Positions 43,201 to 44,171 of a stretch of DNA of 64,000 nt are shown one piece after another (position 1 is the first letter of the stretch; each line of letters opens with the position of its first letter). Origin of the DNA: Acidithiobacillus sp. HP-2. GTDB lineage: Bacteria > Pseudomonadota > Gammaproteobacteria > Acidithiobacillales > Acidithiobacillaceae. The notes beneath the pieces were generated by a model, which saw only the letters and a list, made by a program, of their open reading frames with translations, was not told where the DNA came from and did not search any database. The stretch is taken from assembly GCF_015100155.1 (NCBI RefSeq), contig NZ_JACKZA010000010.1, positions 49,653 to 113,652 of the forward strand, written 5' to 3'. A program made the position numbers and the translations under genes.

Positions 43201-43413
43201 TTCCTGATATTCACTGCGGGAAAGATATCCGCGTCCGTGAAATAATCGGCCCGCTTCTTCCACCGCCTCTTCAAAAGGAAGGTGTTCCAGCCCGAACAGA
43301 GGGTTATGGTGAATGAAGGTGCGCATTGGCCAAAACCGGGGAATGGGCTCGCTGGCCACATAAATCATCGTCCGTACTTTCAGACGATCCCCCAAAGTCA
43401 GTTGATGATCCAT
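40261..43413 (-). CDS. dabA: DabA, carbonic-anhydrase-like subunit of the DAB inorganic-carbon pump
   Basis: A 1050-aa DUF2309 protein. The zinc and active-site residues known from other DabA proteins are present: Cys and Asp in [11 protein letters not shown] (about residues 469 and 471), and His and Cys in [25 protein letters not shown] (about 728 and 743). The His-Cys spacing of 15 is the same as in characterised DabA. DabA is peripheral and works with the membrane protein DabB to turn CO2 into bicarbonate vectorially, driven by the cation gradient. It is longer than the roughly 830-aa Halothiobacillus form. Its start lies inside the last codons of the upstream membrane gene. Confidence 0.93.
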   Translation of the reverse strand: [1050 protein letters not shown]

Positions 43414-44171
43414 ATACCCCCCCAGAAGATTCCGACCAAAGCAAACACCCCCAAAGTCAGTCCACCCAACCAGGTGCCAGCCACACTCAAGTCATGCACC
43501 GCATCGCCATGGTATATACCGAAAAGTAAATCCTGCAAAAGCCGCCCTACGGTCCACCCCCAAAGGAGCAGGACCAGCAATAACAAAGGCATCCAGATGA
43601 TTGGCAAACTTTCCATAGCCTGTAATAAGGCGAAAAAATTGGGAAAGATGGGTGTGGCGGTGGCGGCAAGTGCAGTCAGCGAGATCAGTACGGAAAGACG
43701 GGGCAAAACCCGGGCAAAACCGCCGCTCAGGCCCAGATAAGAACCTCCGGTTTTTTTCGTCAAAACGCCCGCCCATATCAGCATCAGCGCGGCAGGGATG
43801 GACCAGGCGAGCACAAAAAGTTGCATCTCCCAGTGTTGCGGCAGGACCCCGACCAGAAGCCAGGTCAGGGACAAGCCGGAAGTAGCCATAAAACGCGCCC
43901 AAATCTGCATATCACGGGTTCCTGCAGCGCGATAGGCGTACAAAATCGCCGTAAATAATGCCAACGCCCGCAAGGCTGTGGGCATTTCCTGGCCGAGCAG
44001 ATACCAGGCCCCTGATTTCAGAAGCAACAGCAGACCCAGTTGTGGCAGGACAATAACCGTCAGAGCGCGCGCCCAGGCACCCGGTGCACTGACCAGTAAA
44101 CGGTTAAAAATCCAGCTGAACGGGAACCAGGGAAGCAAAGCACCTGCGATAATCCAGATGATGATATCCAT
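43398..44171 (-). CDS. Extra membrane protein between dabB and dabA
   Basis: A 257-aa polytopic protein from ATG 44171. About seven membrane helices are visible (for example IIIWIIAGALLPWFPFSWIF, SLTWLLVGVLPQH, LVLAWSIPAALMLIWAGVL, LPIIWMPLLLLVLLLWGW). The segment GGFARVLPRLSVLISLTALAATATPIFPNFFAL recalls the LxxxGLPxxxGF helix of NuoL/NuoM antiporter-type subunits, so it may be a shortened relative. It starts one base after dabB and overlaps the dabA start, so all three are tightly coupled. The classical DAB complex has only two subunits; this gene could supply a third membrane part or a second half-channel. Function unknown. Confidence 0.72.
   Translation of the reverse strand: MDIIIWIIAGALLPWFPFSWIFNRLLVSAPGAWARALTVIVLPQLGLLLLLKSGAWYLLGQEMPTALRALALFTAILYAYRAAGTRDMQIWARFMATSGLSLTWLLVGVLPQHWEMQLFVLAWSIPAALMLIWAGVLTKKTGGSYLGLSGGFARVLPRLSVLISLTALAATATPIFPNFFALLQAMESLPIIWMPLLLLVLLLWGWTVGRLLQDLLFGIYHGDAVHDLSVAGTWLGGLTLGVFALVGIFWGGIWIIN

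Follow-up and report, generated by a model that had tools for sequence, protein, structure and literature searches.

The window (the whole stretch of DNA analysed, 64,000 nucleotides) harbours a dab gene cluster that sits inside an expanded alpha-carboxysome locus. The genes follow one another in the order carboxysome genes, ParA, cbbO-like VWA gene, dabB, a third gene, dabA, P-II and cbbQ, and a csoS1D-like BMC gene lies beyond cbbQ on the opposite strand. The features discussed below are all located on the reverse strand:

49949..57579, (-): alpha-carboxysome operon, comprising cbbL, cbbS, csoS2, csoSCA and shell genes of the csoS4 and csoS1 types
48571..49203, (-): gene of the ParA family, within the expanded carboxysome locus
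45895..48249, (-): cbbO-like gene with a VWA domain, immediately upstream of dabB
44173..45861, (-): dabB1, encoding a full-length proton-channel subunit of the NuoL type (562 aa; PF00361, PF00662)
44179..44185, (-): sequence resembling a ribosome-binding site (RBS) for the third gene, within the final dabB codons
43398..44171, (-): third DAB1 gene (proposed name dabC), 257 aa, polytopic product, orthologue of Hneap_0908
40261..43413, (-): dabA1, 1050 aa, beta-carbonic-anhydrase-like subunit (PF10070, 840 bits)
41386..41670, (-): insertion in DabA1 (residues ~582-676) that is specific to DAB1 and immediately follows the membrane finger
39938..40264, (-): gene for a P-II-like signalling protein (PF00543), within the dab cluster
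39114..39920, (-): gene for an AAA+ rubisco activase of the cbbQ type (CbbQ_C, AAA_5)

The proteins that flank the third gene product retain the hallmarks of their families. In DabA1, the Cys/Asp/His/Cys residues of the zinc site (C469, D471, H728 and C743) and the finger glutamate E561, the equivalent of DabA2 E444, are invariant in 28 relatives. In DabB1, R166, D169, H249, K299, H328, H332 and K336 are invariant in 36 relatives, and the alignment indicates that the channel residues that matter in DAB2 are kept. With a DabA zinc site, a finger glutamate and a NuoL-like DabB channel, the locus has the predicted attributes of a DAB/DAC CO2 pump; energy-coupled CO2 hydration by DAB/DAC is experimentally established for H. 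neapolitanus only (PMC7714395, PMC13144422). Where NuoL has Glu144 (DabB1 residue ~135), a His is found in most DabB1 proteins and a Phe in that of the window, whilst DabB2 has an Ile (PMC13144422), such that the gating ion pair at this position is changed in both the DAB1 and DAB2 types.

The arrangement that a sequence-only reading had described for the third gene, sandwiched between dabB and dabA, was confirmed: it encodes 257 aa, begins 1 base downstream of dabB and shares 16 bases with dabA. Its product is 31-46% identical across genera, with no internal stops, and shares 95-96% identity with its counterparts in the nearest named genomes, those of Acidithiobacillus sulfurivorans and A. 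concretivorus. The RBS-like sequence reads ACGGTGG in the window and GAGGTGG in most relatives and, together with the 1-base dabB junction, recurs across genera, which points to translational coupling of the third gene to dabB and dabA. This recurrent spacing, the intact frames and the conservation as a protein across genera rule out a chance open reading frame. A promoter scan returned fewer sites than were found in shuffled sequences.

Occurrence of the third gene and its link to DAB1

The gene had been put forward as undescribed, a claim that has to be withdrawn since DAB1 of H. neapolitanus has already been published as a three-subunit complex that includes a small transmembrane protein, Hneap_0908 (PMC13144422, PMC4633670, PMC7714395). 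The same gene order was noted as early as 2015 (PMC4633670). Expression of DAB1 in E. coli included the Hneap_0908 gene, and DAB1 together with this gene rescues a carbonic-anhydrase-free strain (PMC7714395); no published DAB1 construct without the third gene was found in the literature searched. One of the genomes surveyed (G757) was taken to be H. neapolitanus on the grounds that its DabA2 is 100% identical to PDB 9rd0_A over 827 residues. Its DAB1 locus encodes a DabA1 of 1046 aa, the length that has been published, and a third protein of 248 aa that shares 36% identity with the window protein (E 7e-27). By sequence, the window gene is the Acidithiobacillus orthologue of Hneap_0908. It is thus a gene previously known yet unexplained, and what is new here is the assignment of its product to one half of NuoM, discussed below, and its strict link to DAB1.

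This link emerged from a survey of 369 genomes of the class with a 16-member profile, the search for the gene in other DAB loci that the earlier reading had called for. The third gene was present in 36 of these genomes and in all 36, counting one (G191) whose dabA is broken across contigs, it lies between a dabB of ~560 aa and a DAB1-type dabA of ~1040 aa on the same strand. A profile of DAB1-type DabA splits the family cleanly, with 37 genomes scoring at least 1170 bits and other DabA proteins no more than 428 bits. The sole DAB1-type genome without a third-gene match, G163, has its dabA fragment right where a contig begins, which leaves the upstream gene out of view. Conversely, the third gene was absent from all 46 genomes that possess only other DabA types, and no orthologue was detected outside the class among 399 genomes of the phylum. 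The weak profile matches (30 bits or less) fall in the C-terminal halves of full-length antiporter subunits of ~500 aa. The third gene is therefore an always-present, obligate part of the DAB1-type locus, and its product is predicted to be a subunit of the DAB1 complex. In one genome, a second DabA gene of DAB2 size (772 aa; L124 10575-12893) lies ~1.8 kb upstream of the DAB1 operon.

Relationship of the third protein to NuoM/MrpD-type subunits

Searches of Pfam, NCBIfam and the PDB with the single sequence of the third protein returned nothing significant and assigned it to no family; PF00361 is not matched, and at 257 aa the protein is not a complete 14-TM unit. A profile of the third proteins, however, matches the NuoM chain of mycobacterial complex I (8e9g_M, E 6e-6), with profile positions 59-246 aligned to NuoM 297-492. 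Comparisons of profiles with hhalign gave 94% for NuoM, 57% for MrpD, 17% for NuoN and 4% for NuoL, with 0.7% for NuoH and 0.4% for NuoJ as unrelated polytopic controls, and 92% over 185 columns for the full-length antiporter encoded ahead of dabA in a different DAB type. A template-free AlphaFold2 model of the third protein (pLDDT 92.3, pTM 0.90) agrees with this picture. Its 19 best PDB matches in Foldseek, with types assigned by chain label and length, are all ND4/NuoM chains, MrpD chains or formate-hydrogenlyase chains of that type (TMq 0.76-0.83, ~0.80; best E 3e-7), whilst the first chains of the NuoL/ND5 or MrpA type appear at E ~2e-5 to 4e-5. As the alignment spans 261 columns for 257 residues, a single uninterrupted half is matched, and a global alignment places the beginning of the third protein at TM7 of NuoM, LLPWFP falling on VKVPMWP. 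The third protein is thus very probably the C-terminal half (~TM7-14) of a NuoM/MrpD-type subunit, a conclusion drawn from sequence profiles and a predicted structure, and the impression that its C-terminus recalls NuoM was well founded.

The same comparisons bear on the suggestion that the protein is a split-off half of a larger DabB. Its gene adjoins dabB and its product belongs to the same antiporter superfamily, as this origin would require, but DabB1 is itself full length (562 aa), NuoL folds being matched throughout its predicted model of moderate confidence (pLDDT 71), which argues that no half has been removed from it. Furthermore, hhalign gave only 0.5% for DabB1 and 0.1% for DabB2, against 94% for NuoM. 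A DabB origin is consequently very improbable.

Despite the shared fold, all aligned equivalents of the NuoM proton-path Lys, His and Glu are lost in the third protein. In the 36 relatives, the relay columns hold A/G/L/S/T for one His, G/A/S/W/V/T for another and M/L for the Glu, although for the first 58 residues equivalence to NuoM is given by the global alignment only. This loss suggests that the third protein probably does not pump protons. The further proposal of a role in pumping in acid fares no better: an orthologue is present in H. neapolitanus, a neutrophile, and in many other genera among the 36 genomes of the class, and the titratable residues of the NuoM proton path are absent, so that an acid-specific role is disfavoured and was rejected. 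The charged residues of the protein itself are well conserved: among the 36 relatives R81, R158 and D227 never vary, R86 and D/E87 scarcely do, and R35 also counts among these conserved charges.

A possible role on the DabB1 channel

In complex I, the C-terminal half of NuoM is the half that lies beside NuoL. By analogy, the third subunit would be embedded in the membrane alongside the N-terminal half of DabB1, and such docking is considered somewhat likely. It may also touch the DabA1 insertion beside the membrane finger: this segment (residues ~582-676) is found neither in DabA2 nor in the DabA of multi-antiporter loci when the DabA types are aligned, and could be a contact for the third subunit. 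In this position, the protein would brace or seal the complex without pumping, stabilizing DabA1-DabB1 and shutting off the DabB1 channel on its lateral face, whilst CO2 hydration in DabA1 would be powered by protons passing through DabB1, the mechanism that has been proposed for DAB2, making DAB1 a carboxysome-linked CO2 pump (vectorial CO2 hydratase). The invariance of the DabA1 finger glutamate and of the DabB1 channel residues is consistent with this account, as is the report that DAB2, which has no such subunit, is unstable on purification (PMC13144422). On the other side, DAB2 works with two subunits, so that in principle no brace is required, and the conserved R35, R81, R86, D/E87, R158 and D227 could serve an active role.

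These charges are the basis of the main alternative, in which the third protein takes an active part in coupling or gating, its arginines and acidic residues regulating the opening of DabB1 or completing a lateral proton path, so that DAB1 would differ from DAB2 in stoichiometry or affinity. The invariance of R81, R158 and D227 and near-invariance of R86 and D/E87 speak for it, as does the retention of R166 and D169 in DabB1; the protein would also correspond to the NuoM half turned towards the gating ion pairs in NuoL, and ion pairs close to the subunit interface have been described for NuoL (PMC13144422). However, hydrophobic or small residues stand where NuoM has the His, His and Glu of its relay, and DAB2 couples without any such subunit. 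Of these two roles, a brace is thought probable and an active gate fairly unlikely, the full coupling or gating account being given about the same low credence. An assembly or membrane-insertion factor outside the mature complex might equally be small, translationally coupled and devoid of relay residues, but the predicted fold is that of an integral subunit of homologous complexes and DAB2 assembles without the third protein, which leaves such a factor decidedly improbable. Taken as a whole, a NuoM-half third subunit of DAB1 that braces or seals DabB1 is the best explanation, and one we hold with reasonable though far from complete confidence. More tentative, and judged somewhat less likely to be right than wrong, is the broader notion that DAB1 forms a lateral pair like that of complex I, with a NuoM-type subunit that has been cut down to its NuoL-facing half and, having no proton path, only holds or gates the channel.

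If true, this would represent a non-pumping half-antiporter acting as a regulator of a CO2 pump, and a natural case of the NuoL-facing half of NuoM acting alone. The cryo-EM work concerns the two-subunit DAB2 (PMC13144422), and the constant association of DAB1 with a putative half-NuoM subunit thus offers a testable difference between the two types, in stability, coupling or affinity. It also means that the third gene deserves testing before it is omitted when DAB1 is moved to other hosts.

Ancestry and comparison with known systems

Other DAB types provide a possible source for the third protein. In multi-antiporter DAB loci (L063 450-9524, L065 2323-11880, L066 795-10136, L145 7370-15087 and L154 7330-15229), the order is a full-length NuoM-type gene, dabA, dabB and one or two antiporter-like genes, amounting to three or four antiporter-like subunits per DabA; the DabA of these loci lacks the finger glutamate in the alignment. 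Position and the hhalign match suggest that the third protein may have descended from the full-length antiporter beside dabA in such loci, but in a tree the branch leading to the third proteins measures 5.5 changes per site, which makes this ancestry a tentative one.

Further variants were observed. In L062 (9799-12936), a single 1045-aa protein beside dabA is a NuoL-type DabB fused to a NuoM-type subunit, and NuoM-type neighbours therefore do occur in DABs of another type. In L070 (1412-9781) and L146, dabA lies within an operon of Mrp-like small subunits and a SulP-family gene (PF00916) is directly upstream of it.

Compared with the systems already described, the window gene is closest to Hneap_0908, which occupies the same position between dabB1 and dabA1, encodes 248 aa, and differs only by sequence divergence and host, here Acidithiobacillus-like. 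DAB2 (DabA2-DabB2, PDB 9rd0) shares the carbonic anhydrase-like site, the membrane finger glutamate and the NuoL-like channel residues of DabB, but consists of two subunits only and its DabA2 is without the DAB1-specific insertion; none of the non-DAB1 loci examined contains the third gene. Multi-antiporter loci (e.g. L066 and L145) resemble DAB1 in having a NuoM-type gene directly upstream of dabA, although there it encodes a full-length protein (~490 aa) whose PF00361 domain is intact, and dabB is followed by one or two more antiporter-like genes. The third protein appears to match NuoM/ND4 of complex I and MrpD in fold and register over their C-terminal half (TM7-14, TMq ~0.8), whereas, at half their length, it is without the N-terminal half (TM1-6).
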